Assembly: GCA_949398305.1 (NCBI GenBank)
Contig: CASLVD010000006.1
Location: 1-48,726 of the forward strand
Length of the DNA: 48,726 bases
Direction: 5' to 3'
Source: an uncultured Candidatus Melainabacteria bacterium
GTDB lineage: Bacteria > Cyanobacteriota > Vampirovibrionia > Gastranaerophilales > Gastranaerophilaceae
Shown here: piece by piece, positions 2,643 to 34,311 of the stretch
How positions within the stretch are numbered: the stretch's first letter is position 1
Layout of the letters: each line of letters begins with the position of its first letter
Notes under the pieces: model-generated
The model's input: the letters and a program-made list of their open reading frames with translations, nothing else
The model's database searches: none
Told to the model about the DNA's origin: nothing
Made by a program: the position numbers and the translations under genes

Positions 2643-3975
2643 TTTCGCCCTCTTTATAAAATTTCATTCTGTGTGTTGCTTTTTTGGTTATTTTAATCTT
2701 ATCGCTTATTCCAAGCCCGATTGCCCATAAGATTTCATTATCAAAGGCAAGGAAAAATAACTTATCTTTTTCGTGGTTTGGAATTTTTTTCTCGTTTAAG
2801 TATTTTTTTAATTTTTGAGTGCCTTTTAGTCCGAAAGGTTTTATTATATCGCCTTCAAGCCGTGTTCTTAAGTCAAAATCAATAGGTTCTGACAGCTGAA
2901 CATATGCTATTTTTTCGCTGTCTTTCGGAAACTTTTTAACTTCTTTATCAAATTTTTCAAGCTCAAATACATATTCGTCAAATTTGTAGCTTCCTTCTTT
3001 TGTAATACGAATGAAAGGTTTTAACGGTGTTTTTTGTGTAATGATTTCAATAAATTTATCACTTGTAAAAATCCATAAATCACTTGTTAAAGAACAGGTT
3101 TTACCGGATTTTGAACTTGAGTTCTCTTTTATAAATTCTAAAATATTAAAAATCTTTTTCCTGTCGTAATCGAGATTATGATTAGTAAACATGTTATAAA
3201 TAATACGTTTTTGAATAGCGTTTGAAAGATTTAAAAACTTTTTTGTTGAAATCTTATTATCAACAGATATTTTTTTTAAAATTTGGTTTAAATATTCTTC
3301 TATAATTTCTGTTTCTTCTTTTGCAATTTCAGATAGTGAATTTATTGAATCTACGGCGTTTGAATTAACTTTTTGAAAAGCCGGCATGATGTTTGCCCTG
3401 ATGAAATTTCTTTTATATTTAGTATCAGAATTTGAGCTGTCGTTGTTTGGATTTAGGTGATGTTTTTGACAGTATGTTTCGATTTCATCTCGTGTAATGT
3501 CAAGTAAAGGACGGTAAAATATTCCGCGTCTTTCGTTTATCCCCTGCAAGCCGGAAATACCTGTCCCTGTTGCAATCCTGTATATTAAAGTTTCAGCGTT
3601 ATCGTTTTTGTTGTGTGCTGTAAAAACTATTTGGCTGTTAAATTTTTTTGCACAGTGTTTAAAAAAATCATACCTTGCATCTCTTGCCGCTGTTTCTGTT
3701 TTTGGAATATTTGATGCTAAATTTTCACTGTAGAATTCGATACCAAGAGATTCACAGAAATTTTTACAGTTAATTTCTTCGTTATCGCTTTCTTCCCCGC
3801 GCCATTTGTGGTTTAGGTGGATTGCAACGATTTTGTTTTTTACGGTGTGATGTAAAGCATCTAAAAGACACATTGAATCGTATCCGCCTGAAAATGCCGC
3901 AAGATAAACTAAATCCGGTTTATCTAAATCGTGTTTTTGCAAAAAAGATTTAATTGTTTCGCGAATTTTGTTCAT
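2632..3975 (-). CDS. tilS: tRNA(Ile)-lysidine synthase
   Basis: Converts the wobble cytidine of the tRNA-Ile that reads AUA to lysidine, using ATP and lysine; normally essential. The PP-loop ATP-pyrophosphatase motif SGGYDS is at residues 29-34, followed by the expected HLNHKWRGEESDNEE and FTAHNKNDNAETLIYR stretches. The C-terminal part (about 365-440) carries the TilS C-domain signature with RTRLEGDIIKPFG. Length (447 aa) is normal. It starts with ATG a few bases after the stop of the Clp-N gene and overlaps hpt downstream, so it sits within a tight operon. Confidence 0.95.
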   Translation of the reverse strand: MNKIRETIKSFLQKHDLDKPDLVYLAAFSGGYDSMCLLDALHHTVKNKIVAIHLNHKWRGEESDNEEINCKNFCESLGIEFYSENLASNIPKTETAARDARYDFFKHCAKKFNSQIVFTAHNKNDNAETLIYRIATGTGISGLQGINERRGIFYRPLLDITRDEIETYCQKHHLNPNNDSSNSDTKYKRNFIRANIMPAFQKVNSNAVDSINSLSEIAKEETEIIEEYLNQILKKISVDNKISTKKFLNLSNAIQKRIIYNMFTNHNLDYDRKKIFNILEFIKENSSSKSGKTCSLTSDLWIFTSDKFIEIITQKTPLKPFIRITKEGSYKFDEYVFELEKFDKEVKKFPKDSEKIAYVQLSEPIDFDLRTRLEGDIIKPFGLKGTQKLKKYLNEKKIPNHEKDKLFFLAFDNEILWAIGLGISDKIKITKKATHRMKFYKEGENGN

Positions 3976-16228: not shown

Positions 16229-17092
16229 TTATTTTGCAGTTTTTAAAACATATCTTGCCGCCGCTGTTGCAGGTTCAACAATTCCGTCATGGAATCTGAT
16301 CGGATATACGTCAGTGAGGTGTTTTGTATCATTTTTTACAATACAGGTTTTATTTGCATTTAGTGATTCTGAACCTTTAGAACAACTAACTTCTTTGTTT
16401 GGTAAATTCGTTCCGTTAACATCAATAAAACCATAGCACATACTTGTTCCGTTACCATCGGCAGATTCTGTTTTTATTGATGTACCTATCCTTAAACTGC
16501 ATCCGTTATTTTGACCTAAAACATTGACAAATCCTATTATTATGCCGTCAGAGAGTACATATGCCATGTAATTTGATAATTCTTTTCCCTGAGCATTAAA
16601 GAAATATGAGTTTTCAATGTTGTAATTTTGTTGAGAACCTTTTTTATTTATTTTTATATCAGTAGCTTTTGTATAAAATGTTGCACCTGTTAATGTGCCG
16701 TTCAAAATTGCGCAAATAGTTTGAGTTTGTTCGGGGTTCTCATTTGCTGCGTTTGCTCCGCATTGTGCTGAGATACCTGCATAATCAAACCCGTATTGAG
16801 CTTGTGACATTCTTGCGGCTTGAGACAGAGTAGATATTGTTTTCTTTAAACGTGAACGATATTGTTGTGAGCGGGTGTTTGCAATAAGTGTCGGAATTGT
16901 CATAGCTGCTACGACACCGATTATACCAAGGGTGATTAAAACCTCAGCCAAAGTAAAACCCTCCTCGGCCGGAGTGGGCACTTTGCTACAAACCTTAGCA
17001 CCTATTACATCAATCCACGACCTGCGGTGCTCAACCGGTGGCATAGCTACGTGTGTAGCACCTTCTGCTAAAGTAAAACCTTTTTTATACAT
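16229..17092 (-). CDS. Type IV pseudopilin with an in-frame leader insertion
   Basis: Pilin-like protein whose N-terminus carries GFTLAE twice: at residues 5-10 and again at 45-50. Only the second runs into the hydrophobic helix VLITLGIIGVVAAMTIPTLI, so the mature protein probably begins at the second Phe. The 34 residues between (11-44, starting GATHVAMPPVEHRR) come from a GC-rich insertion. The globular domain has many Cys. Its VDVNGTNLPN motif matches the paralogues, but the following GKD is missing. AGGAGG precedes the ATG. It is divergent from an HTH gene across 111 bp that contain a perfect 26-bp palindrome. Confidence 0.85.
   Translation of the reverse strand: MYKKGFTLAEGATHVAMPPVEHRRSWIDVIGAKVCSKVPTPAEEGFTLAEVLITLGIIGVVAAMTIPTLIANTRSQQYRSRLKKTISTLSQAARMSQAQYGFDYAGISAQCGANAANENPEQTQTICAILNGTLTGATFYTKATDIKINKKGSQQNYNIENSYFFNAQGKELSNYMAYVLSDGIIIGFVNVLGQNNGCSLRIGTSIKTESADGNGTSMCYGFIDVNGTNLPNKEVSCSKGSESLNANKTCIVKNDTKHLTDVYPIRFHDGIVEPATAAARYVLKTAK
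16943..17080 (-). repeat. GC-rich insertion flanked by FTLAE-coding repeats
   Basis: Two 18-bp copies of the GFTLAE codons (17063-17080 and 16943-16960, 15 of 18 bases the same) enclose 102 bp (16961-17062) with about 56% G+C by my count, far above its surroundings. The reading frame is kept. The insert holds GCTAC-ACAC-GTAGC, a small inverted repeat, near its beginning. Since the leader ahead of the second FTLAE should be cut off, the insertion need not alter the mature pilin. Confidence 0.75.
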
Positions 17093-17142
17093 AAAACCTC
17101 CTGAATATTAACATATAAAACAATATAAAAGCGTATATGCTA

Positions 17143-17168
17143 AATTATTAGCATGCATGCTAATAATT
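17143..17168. promoter_or_regulatory. Perfect 26-bp palindrome, likely operator of the 17-kb module
   Basis: Half-site AATTATTAGCATG followed by its exact complement. It spans the spacer and -10 region of the minus-strand pseudopilin promoter and touches its -35 box. The likely binder is the divergent HTH protein at 17204, by position. Confidence 0.75.
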
Positions 17169-17173
17169 GTCAA
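17145..17173 (-). promoter_or_regulatory. Promoter of the 16229-17092 pseudopilin
   Basis: On the minus strand: TTGACA (17168-17173), a 17-bp spacer, then TAATAA (17145-17150). The spacer and -10 coincide with the 26-bp palindrome. The same bases read on the plus strand give TTGTCA, a possible -35 for the HTH gene, so the two promoters may compete. Confidence 0.65.
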
Positions 17174-17191: not shown

Positions 17192-17197
17192 TAAAAT
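17192..17197 (+). promoter_or_regulatory. -10-like hexamer of the HTH gene, leaderless spacing
   Basis: TAAAAT ends 6 bases before the ATG at 17204, and there is no ribosome site between. A start of transcription at the normal distance would fall on the ATG, suggesting a leaderless mRNA. The possible -35 (TTGTCA, 17167-17172) is 19 bp away, a long spacer. Confidence 0.5.
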
Positions 17198-17203
17198 ATC
17201 TTT

Positions 17204-17413
17204 ATGATAAAAATTAATCTCAGGGAATTGATGTGGGAAAAAAATATTTCTGCAGTTCAAATACAACGGGAAACCGGAATCCATGCAACAACTATTTCAA
17301 GGATTATAAATGGTAAACAGTCAAATCTTGGTTTGGAAACGCTTGATAAATTATGTACGGTTTTGGATTGTAAAATACAGGATTTAATTACATATGAACG
17401 TGTTAATAAGTAA
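17204..17413 (+). CDS. Small Cro/C1-type HTH regulator
   Basis: A 69-aa DNA-binding protein that is a single XRE-type five-helix domain. The HTH lies at about residues 16-40 (SAVQIQRETGIHATTISRIINGKQSN) and the third-helix region ends with LDKLCTVLDCKIQDLITYE, as in YozG-like proteins. It has no sensor domain. It faces the pseudopilin gene at 17092 across a 111-bp gap with a palindromic operator, so it is probably a local, self-controlled repressor or switch for that gene. It resembles the partial HTH gene at the window end. Confidence 0.85.
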   Translation: MIKINLRELMWEKNISAVQIQRETGIHATTISRIINGKQSNLGLETLDKLCTVLDCKIQDLITYERVNK

Positions 17414-17435: not shown

Positions 17436-18083
17436 ATGAAAGAATTTTTTGTTGGATTATTAGATTGGATTTATAAGAAGCGGTGCTATTTTTGCAAAAG
17501 TTCAAAAGAATCTGTGAAAATGTGTTCAAAGTGTTTTGATGAACTCGAATTTTTGCCCGCTGAAGTTAACCGAAAAGTCTTTAAGGCAGAAGTTTATTGT
17601 GCAGGGGTTTATTCTAAAAATCTGCAAAAAATGATTCGAGGGCTAAAGTATCACGGGCAGCAAGATTTAGCGTATTATCAGGCAAAATTTATGTGGCAGT
17701 ACTGGCAGCGTTTGGGTTTTGAAGAGGATTTTCAAATCGTTCCCGTGCCGATTTTCCCAAAGCGCAAAAAGCAGCGTAAATATAATCATATGGAACTTGT
17801 AGCGCTTGAATTTGCAAAACTCTCAGGTTACGAGGTTAACTTTGATCTTATAAAACGTATTAAAGATACAAAACCTCAGTATAAATTGAAAAAGGTTGAG
17901 CGGATGGCAAATTTAGCGAAGGCTTTTGAGGTTAACCCTGAAAAACTTCTGCCTGATAAAGAAATTCTTATTATTGATGATATTTGTACAACGGGTTCAA
18001 CATTTGAAGAGATGATAAAAGAGTTTAATAATATTGGTATTTATGATATAACTTGTTTTGCAACAACAACGCCATTTAATTAG
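17436..18083 (+). CDS. comF: ComF-family phosphoribosyltransferase-like protein
   Basis: ComF-type protein, needed for DNA uptake in naturally competent bacteria such as Bacillus and Haemophilus, with a PRTase fold of uncertain activity. A four-Cys zinc site is visible at C17, C20, C30 and C33 (CYFC ... CSKC), and the PRPP-loop motif ILIIDDICTTGST near residue 176. KQRKYNHMELVALEFAK is also typical. The 215-aa length is normal. It follows the HTH gene by 22 bp and could be read from its promoter. Confidence 0.9.
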   Translation: MKEFFVGLLDWIYKKRCYFCKSSKESVKMCSKCFDELEFLPAEVNRKVFKAEVYCAGVYSKNLQKMIRGLKYHGQQDLAYYQAKFMWQYWQRLGFEEDFQIVPVPIFPKRKKQRKYNHMELVALEFAKLSGYEVNFDLIKRIKDTKPQYKLKKVERMANLAKAFEVNPEKLLPDKEILIIDDICTTGSTFEEMIKEFNNIGIYDITCFATTTPFN

Positions 18084-24159: not shown

Positions 24160-24846
24160 TTACCCCTTCCAAGGATAACTTTTATCGATTTTCCAGCCTG
24201 CGCGTCGGATTTTTTCTGCACAATACATGCCATTACCGTTTGGCTTACAGTCATTATTAATTTCTTTATCAGTCTTTTCGTGTCCTGCAAAAGCTACGAA
24301 TCCGCCCTTTTCTCCATCAGTTCCACGGGTTAATATGAATACATCTTTTCCTAGTTTATTAGGCGGAGCTGCGCCATTAATATCAAGAGTCATATTTGTA
24401 GAAGCTGCAGAAAAACTACCATCACTGTTTTGGGCTTTTGTATATATTATATAAAGAAAACCATCTGCAGTATAAAAATTTGCTCTAAAATTCCCGCCAG
24501 CTCCGAATGCTGTAACTTTTTTATTTTGTAAGTTAATATAAGGATTTCCATTTTTATATCCGCAAGTGTCGGTACAAAGGTGTGCAGCTTTAATATATGG
24601 AGCCCAAAATTTATTAAAATATTCTGGAGCTCCCAGTTCAAAAGCTTCCTGCCTGTCAGCTTCACCAACATCATCATATGCCAATCGATAAGCTTGATTC
24701 ATAATTCCTAATGCTCGTTGAAGTTTGGCAACTGTTTGTTTTTTTTGCTGTTCTGCAATTAATGTCGGAATGGTCATTGCTGCTACAATTCCGATAATTC
24801 CCAAAGTAATTAATACCTCAGCTAAAGTAAAACCTATTTTTTTCAT
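24160..24846 (-). CDS. Type IV pseudopilin
   Basis: A 228-aa pilin-like protein with a very short leader (MKKIG) before FTLAEVLITLGIIGIVAAMTI. The globular domain has Cys pairs at CTDTC and near the C-terminus, the shared motif LDINGAAPPNKLGKDVF, and ends GWKIDKSYPWKG, like the first pseudopilin of the window. AAGGA precedes the ATG. It is divergent from the HTH gene at 24955 across 108 bp. Confidence 0.9.
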   Translation of the reverse strand: MKKIGFTLAEVLITLGIIGIVAAMTIPTLIAEQQKKQTVAKLQRALGIMNQAYRLAYDDVGEADRQEAFELGAPEYFNKFWAPYIKAAHLCTDTCGYKNGNPYINLQNKKVTAFGAGGNFRANFYTADGFLYIIYTKAQNSDGSFSAASTNMTLDINGAAPPNKLGKDVFILTRGTDGEKGGFVAFAGHEKTDKEINNDCKPNGNGMYCAEKIRRAGWKIDKSYPWKG

Positions 24847-24954: not shown

Positions 24955-25167
24955 ATGAATGAAATTAAGGCAAAAATTAAAATGCTTGTTATATCTCGGG
25001 GAATGACGCTGAAATCTCTTGCTGAAAAACTTACTGTGTTAACAGGAGAGGAATATTCTTATAACAGTCTTTTGGGAAAATTAAACCGAGAAAGTTTATC
25101 ATTAAAAGAAGCAGGATATATTGCTAAGATTTTGGACTATAAAATAGAATTTATTAGTATAAAATAA
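24955..25167 (+). CDS. Small HTH regulator between two pseudopilins
   Basis: A 70-aa protein with an HTH-like helical fold (MLVISRGMTLKSLAEKL ... YNSLLGKLNRESLSLKEAGYIAKILDYKIEFI). It resembles the 44339-44563 protein in length and in the pattern of an N-terminal charged helix, then S-L-A-(E/Q), then K-L-R/N-R, then a final ILxYxxxF. It lies divergent to one pseudopilin gene and directly upstream, on the same strand, of another (25180). TATAAT (24940-24945) ends 9 bases before the ATG with no ribosome site, so a leaderless mRNA is possible. Likely local regulator. Confidence 0.8.
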   Translation: MNEIKAKIKMLVISRGMTLKSLAEKLTVLTGEEYSYNSLLGKLNRESLSLKEAGYIAKILDYKIEFISIK

Positions 25168-34007: not shown

Positions 34008-34039
34008 TGTTTATTACAATATATATATTGTAATAAACA
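34008..34039. promoter_or_regulatory. Perfect 32-bp palindrome, likely operator of the 34-kb module
   Basis: Half-site TGTTTATTACAATATA followed by its exact complement. It starts directly below the minus-strand -10 box and covers the expected transcription start of the pseudopilin. The HTH protein at 34087 is the likely binder. Confidence 0.8.
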
Positions 34040-34086: not shown

Positions 34087-34311
34087 ATGGATAAAAAAGA
34101 AATTTTAAAAGAATTTGGCAGAAATTTAAAAGCTGAGCGAAATCGAGCGGGGTTATCTCAAGAGCAGCTTGCTGAAAAAATCGGGGTTTCATATGGGCAG
34201 GTTGTTGGAATGATAGAACGAGGCGAAACAAATACATCATTATCTGTGATTGTTGGAATTATGAATGCTTTAGATTTAGATTTTGATAAGTTATATGATA
34301 GAAAATTATAA
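34087..34311 (+). CDS. Small XRE-family HTH regulator
   Basis: A 74-aa protein that is one canonical HTH_3 (lambda Cro/C1) domain: LKAERNRAGLSQEQLAEKIGVSYGQVVGMIERGETNTSLSVIVGIMNAL. No ligand or oligomerisation domain is attached. It is divergent from the 33980 pseudopilin and followed directly by a terminator, so it is a single-gene unit. Its class differs from that of the regulators at 24955 and 44339. Confidence 0.9.
   Translation: MDKKEILKEFGRNLKAERNRAGLSQEQLAEKIGVSYGQVVGMIERGETNTSLSVIVGIMNALDLDFDKLYDRKL

Follow-up and report, generated by a model that had tools for sequence, protein, structure and literature searches.

The lambda cI/Cro operator region (OR) combines divergent promoters, dimers bound on neighbouring operators and a leaderless repressor transcript. 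Aca (anti-CRISPR-associated) autorepressors, small HTH proteins, act via inverted repeats to switch off an adjacent operon. The controller (C) proteins of restriction-modification (R-M) systems, such as C.AhdI, C.Esp1396I and C.Csp231I, are small Cro/C1-type dimers acting on paired palindromic operators in control of their own gene and a partner gene. In classical R-M controller systems the sites lie about 4 bp apart (PMC4321490).

Here we analyse a divergent pair formed by a pilin gene and an HTH gene in a 48,726-nucleotide stretch of DNA from an uncultured Candidatus Melainabacteria bacterium, hereafter the window. Based on comparisons with these systems, the pilin-paired regulator would work most like the R-M controller proteins with their paired operators, and also resembles the lambda right operator. 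As at classical controller sites (PMC4321490), the gap between the two candidate dimer sites is about 4 bp, a likeness in the arrangement of two adjacent sites. In contrast to the R-M controllers, the partner is a pilin rather than a nuclease or methylase, the operator sequence differs from the GACT/AGTC boxes, the two genes are divergent, and many copies occur per genome. The neighbours of the HTH gene are the pilin and comF, and as no R-M genes adjoin it, its product is not an R-M controller by membership. With lambda OR the locus shares divergent promoters, neighbouring candidate operators and a probably leaderless regulator transcript, but OR has three operators, two regulators and spacing of about 24 bp, compared to two operators, one regulator and 20 bp here, where the regulator also has no cleavable domain. 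The best PDB sequence match of the HTH protein is Aca11 (E 0.0011). Phage aca genes share a transcript with their targets and follow an anti-CRISPR gene within one operon, whereas the gene described here is chromosomal, divergent and stand-alone, followed by comF. A phage origin was rejected, viral contigs holding distant relatives only (29-33% identity).

The features of the window referred to below are:

16229-17092, minus strand: type IV pilin-like gene, 287 aa, PF07963 (N_methyl), duplicated GFTLAE leader motif
17128-17143, no strand: candidate operator O1, AAAGCGTATATGCTAA, imperfect, covering the expected pilin start site
17143-17168, no strand: perfect 26-bp palindrome, from self-complementarity and simulation
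17145-17150, minus strand: pilin -10, TAATAA, after a 17-bp spacer; TAATAT in several orthologues
17148-17163, no strand: candidate operator O2, TTAGCATGCATGCTAA, within the pilin -35/-10 spacer; corresponds to the conserved inner 16 bp of the 26-mer
17168-17173, minus strand: pilin -35, TTGACA (TGTCAA on the plus strand), conserved in orthologues
17167-17172, plus strand: possible HTH promoter -35, TTGTCA, back to back with the pilin -35
17192-17197, plus strand: HTH promoter -10, TAAAAT, ending 6 nt before the ATG
17204-17413, plus strand: HTH_26 Cro/C1-type regulator gene, 69 aa, presumed binder of O1 and O2
17436-18083, plus strand: ComF-like phosphoribosyltransferase gene, 22 nt downstream of the HTH gene
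24955-25167, plus strand: small regulator-like gene of the second family (70 aa; no match in Pfam), transcribed divergently from a pilin at 24160-24846 (minus strand)
34008-34039, no strand: perfect 32-bp palindrome in another divergent pilin/HTH promoter

Results

A perfect palindrome overlies the pilin promoter

The sequence AATTATTAGCATGCATGCTAATAATT at 17143-17168 is fully self-complementary, bearing out the earlier note's claim of a perfect 26-bp palindrome in the pilin promoter. None of 200 windows simulated with a first-order Markov model contained a palindrome of this length (half of at least 13), the largest half being 12, and only one copy of the 26-mer is present in the 1.92-Mb genome, even with up to 3 mismatches allowed. 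The same note had placed it exactly between TTGACA and the end of TAATAA. The palindrome does overlie the promoter, but the fit is not exact: read on the minus strand, it comprises the last base of TTGACA (17168), the 17-base spacer, TAATAA and two further bases. The outer five bases of each arm (AATTA/TAATT) lack symmetry in the orthologous regions of other species.

Only one other perfect palindrome in the window reaches this length, the 32-bp palindrome at 34008-34039, flanked by a pilin starting at about 33980 (minus strand) and an HTH gene at 34087-34311 (plus strand). It lies directly downstream of the likely -10 of that pilin, i.e. at a promoter-relative position unlike that at 17143.

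Two candidate operators keep a constant distance to the pilin -35

Orthologues of the HTH gene were found on eight contigs (81-94% identity), including Candidatus Scatousia and Candidatus Gastranaerophilales, and in these the positions of O1 and O2, both promoters and the HTH gene are kept together, with a pilin as the divergent gene wherever the contig is long enough. TGTCAA, the plus-strand reading of the pilin -35, is invariant in the alignment, and the -10 mostly reads ATATTA on the plus strand. The distances of both operators from the -35 box are fixed, with 12 bp from the O2 centre to the TGTCAA anchor and 20 bp between the two centres. Both are 16-bp imperfect palindromes across the aligned orthologues, some being markedly asymmetric with 4-5 of 8 pairs (L043, L045). 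A palindromic site thus overlaps the promoter of the divergent gene, at a position conserved among homologues. The nearest orthologue, L039 (94% identical), is without the intergenic region and the pilin start; at about 2971-3001 its HTH gene directly adjoins the pilin GVVAAMT codons. This may represent a real deletion, in which case the HTH gene can exist without the intergenic region, or a faulty or collapsed assembly.

The functional unit is probably not the whole 26-mer, but its inner 16 bp (17148-17163) together with the second operator at 17128-17143, a site absent from the earlier reading. The proposal of pilin repression by the divergent HTH protein at the pilin promoter gains comparative support from sequence (orthologues, paralogous subfamilies and the divergent partners of other pilins in the genome), in the modified form of two 16-bp operators in place of a single 26-bp site.

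The pilin and regulator genes

The pilin gene, with its ATG at 17092, carries the prepilin cleavage/methylation motif (PF07963, 28 bits, cut-off 21.2, residues 44-65). In the leader region at 16953-17078, an in-frame insert, GATHVAMPPVEHRRSWIDVIGAKVCSKVPTPAEE, separates the two GFTLAE copies. Similar inserts, such as PVFSKAGFTLAE and HRRSxIDVIxAK..PTPAEE, are found in other pilins (16 of the 109 pilin leaders of the genome), which suggests that an element is repeated here or that the prepilin motif undergoes recombination.

The protein encoded at 17204 belongs to the HTH_26, or Cro/C1 (Xre), family (PF13443, 66.3 bits, cut-off 22). Across 38 HTH genes, a TATAAT-like hexamer ends 6 nt upstream of the ATG (on average 4.55 of 6 positions match, vs about 2.4 at other distances), and a Shine-Dalgarno motif precedes none of the 38; the transcripts are hence probably leaderless. 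Since the possible -35 of the HTH promoter, TTGTCA, is complementary to the pilin -35, the two promoters are placed back to back. ComF was rejected as part of the module: several orthologues have it next to the HTH gene, but in L040, L042/L043 and L044 its place is taken by something else.

The candidate operator position recurs in paralogous subfamilies

Same-genus relatives of the regulator (about 40-55% identity) are often divergent from pilins too, with a nearly constant distance from HTH to FTLAE. When 38 intergenic regions, drawn from six HTH subfamilies, are anchored on the pilin -35 and the subfamilies are weighted equally, the O2 centre has the greatest symmetry among 96 offsets (4.97 of 8 pairs vs 3.04 expected, z 7.5; best z in 500 shuffles 4.4), and minor peaks are seen at O1 (-32/-33) and midway. 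The layout relative to the pilin -35 is the same in the paralogous subfamilies while the sequences differ, i.e. TTAGCATGCATGCTAA in subfamily A, TTACCTTTTAAGGTAA in B, and TTAGTATTAATACTAA and TTATCACAAGTGATAA in D. Operator distance correlates with recognition-helix distance at r 0.50, compared to 0.22 and 0.40 for control DNA, a relation confounded by phylogeny. The predicted layout rule is strongest in subfamilies A to D, because the single 16-bp sites of subfamily E are poorly symmetric and no adjacent pilin was detected for several D/E members.

Pilin/regulator pairs recur across the genome and genus

The genome holds 117 pilin-start matches; 109 were examined, and for 98 of these the DNA upstream could be read. 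A dedicated divergent small DNA-binding partner accompanies 68 of these 98 (52 Xre-type, 14 of a second small HTH-like family and 2 ribbon-helix-helix-like), and 30 have none. Among HTH_3 matches, 51 of 78 are divergent from a pilin within 700 bp, against 1.7 expected at random. The second family, at 24955-25167 and 13 other genome loci, consists of HTH-like proteins of about 70 aa that are mostly unrecognised by Pfam and divergent from pilins; no standout intergenic dyads were found in its 14 regions. Two pilins (L184 and L235) face ribbon-helix-helix-like genes (HicB/CopG or ParG-like) and no HTH gene.

When the best dyad was assessed in all pilin/HTH regions, p≤0.05 was reached in 11 of 52 Xre pairs and 0 of 14 second-family pairs, compared to 13% of the 30 regulator-less controls. 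The excess is modest, and the operator claim therefore rests on the aligned HTH_26-family set and not on every pair.

Two congeners have 115 and 49 pilin matches, and three genomes of other families in the same order have 7, 8 and 12. A divergent HTH gene lies beside 12 of 16 sampled pilins in the congeners vs 2 of 18 outside the genus, the compared genomes being mostly fragmented metagenome assemblies. The expansion is strong in the genus Candidatus Scatousia (Gastranaerophilales), and only weakly developed in other sampled families. A paper on a termite-gut melainabacterium describes standard pil genes only (PMC5877343), and our literature search, thin on subscription journals, retrieved no description of the pairing.

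Discussion

Based on these comparisons, we favour with good confidence a mechanism in which the 26-mer contains the inner operator (O2) of a 16-bp pair for the 17204 protein, which would block the pilin promoter and tune its own. Binding of the protein to O1 and O2, and the sign of regulation, we infer from sequence. One HTH dimer would occupy each operator, with the two dimers two helical turns apart and hence on the same face of the DNA. A dimer bound over the spacer, -10 and start of a promoter with a 17-bp spacer should block polymerase, and occupancy of O2 (spacer and -10) and O1 (start site) would accordingly exclude RNA polymerase from the pilin promoter. As that spacer already has its optimal length, MerR-type activation of the pilin is disfavoured. 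With the promoters back to back and the -35 segment in common, the same occupancy would adjust the leaderless transcript of the HTH gene itself, so that the protein very probably also controls itself, most simply through autorepression, with self-activation from O2 as another possibility. Each pilin would thus have its own private, self-adjusting off-switch, in a scheme repeated in about 68 pilin/regulator pairs.

It is conceivable, though we think it unlikely, that the HTH protein is mainly a self-activator, with O2 recruiting polymerase to a weak promoter of its own (spacer of 18-20 nt), as for lambda cI from OR2 and for R-M controllers. The system would then be bistable, alternating between HTH-on/pilin-off and HTH-off/pilin-on. 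The back-to-back promoters, the over-long spacer of the HTH promoter and the position of O2 beside TTGTCA are compatible with this, as is the controller protein C.BclI among the weak sequence relatives. Set against it, O2 is centred about 48 bp before the expected HTH start instead of close to -41, and TTGTCA may be nothing but the pilin -35 read on the other strand.

Binding of another, global regulator to the site, with the HTH protein acting elsewhere, appears improbable. The 26-mer is found at this locus only, and the 16-bp operator pattern has 15 matches elsewhere in the genome at 1-2 mismatches vs 8 for the reversed control pattern, i.e. no copies clearly above chance; the sole 1-mismatch copy falls inside a coding frame. 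A genome-wide regulon was rejected on these few and weak matches. Furthermore, operators that vary in sequence among paralogous HTH subfamilies yet keep their position fit with local regulators. An accidental or non-functional symmetry, as might be read from the unconserved outer five bases of each arm, is very unlikely considering the Markov simulations and a signal that is tied to position in several subfamilies. An RNA hairpin (terminator or attenuator), into which the perfect symmetry could fold, is hardly credible and was rejected, as both expected starts (pilin about 17138, HTH about 17204) are downstream of the palindrome and a terminator-like site was not found.

Returning to repression from O1 and O2, a single divergent autorepressor is ordinary; 68 of 98 readable pilins each with their own small regulator are not. 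The pairing predicts independent control of each pilin in these little-studied gut bacteria, and the matched regulator/operator pairs represent a natural series for learning how the DNA specificity of Cro/C1 proteins changes. More tentatively, and short of what we would call probable, we envisage a genus-wide pilin switchboard, in which about 70 pilins per genome each have a private, self-regulating divergent switch protein, drawn from several DNA-binding families and with its own operator code. If so, pilins could be turned on individually or stochastically, generating surface variation without DNA inversion or recombination, and new pairs would arise via duplication, followed by divergence of operator and recognition helix.
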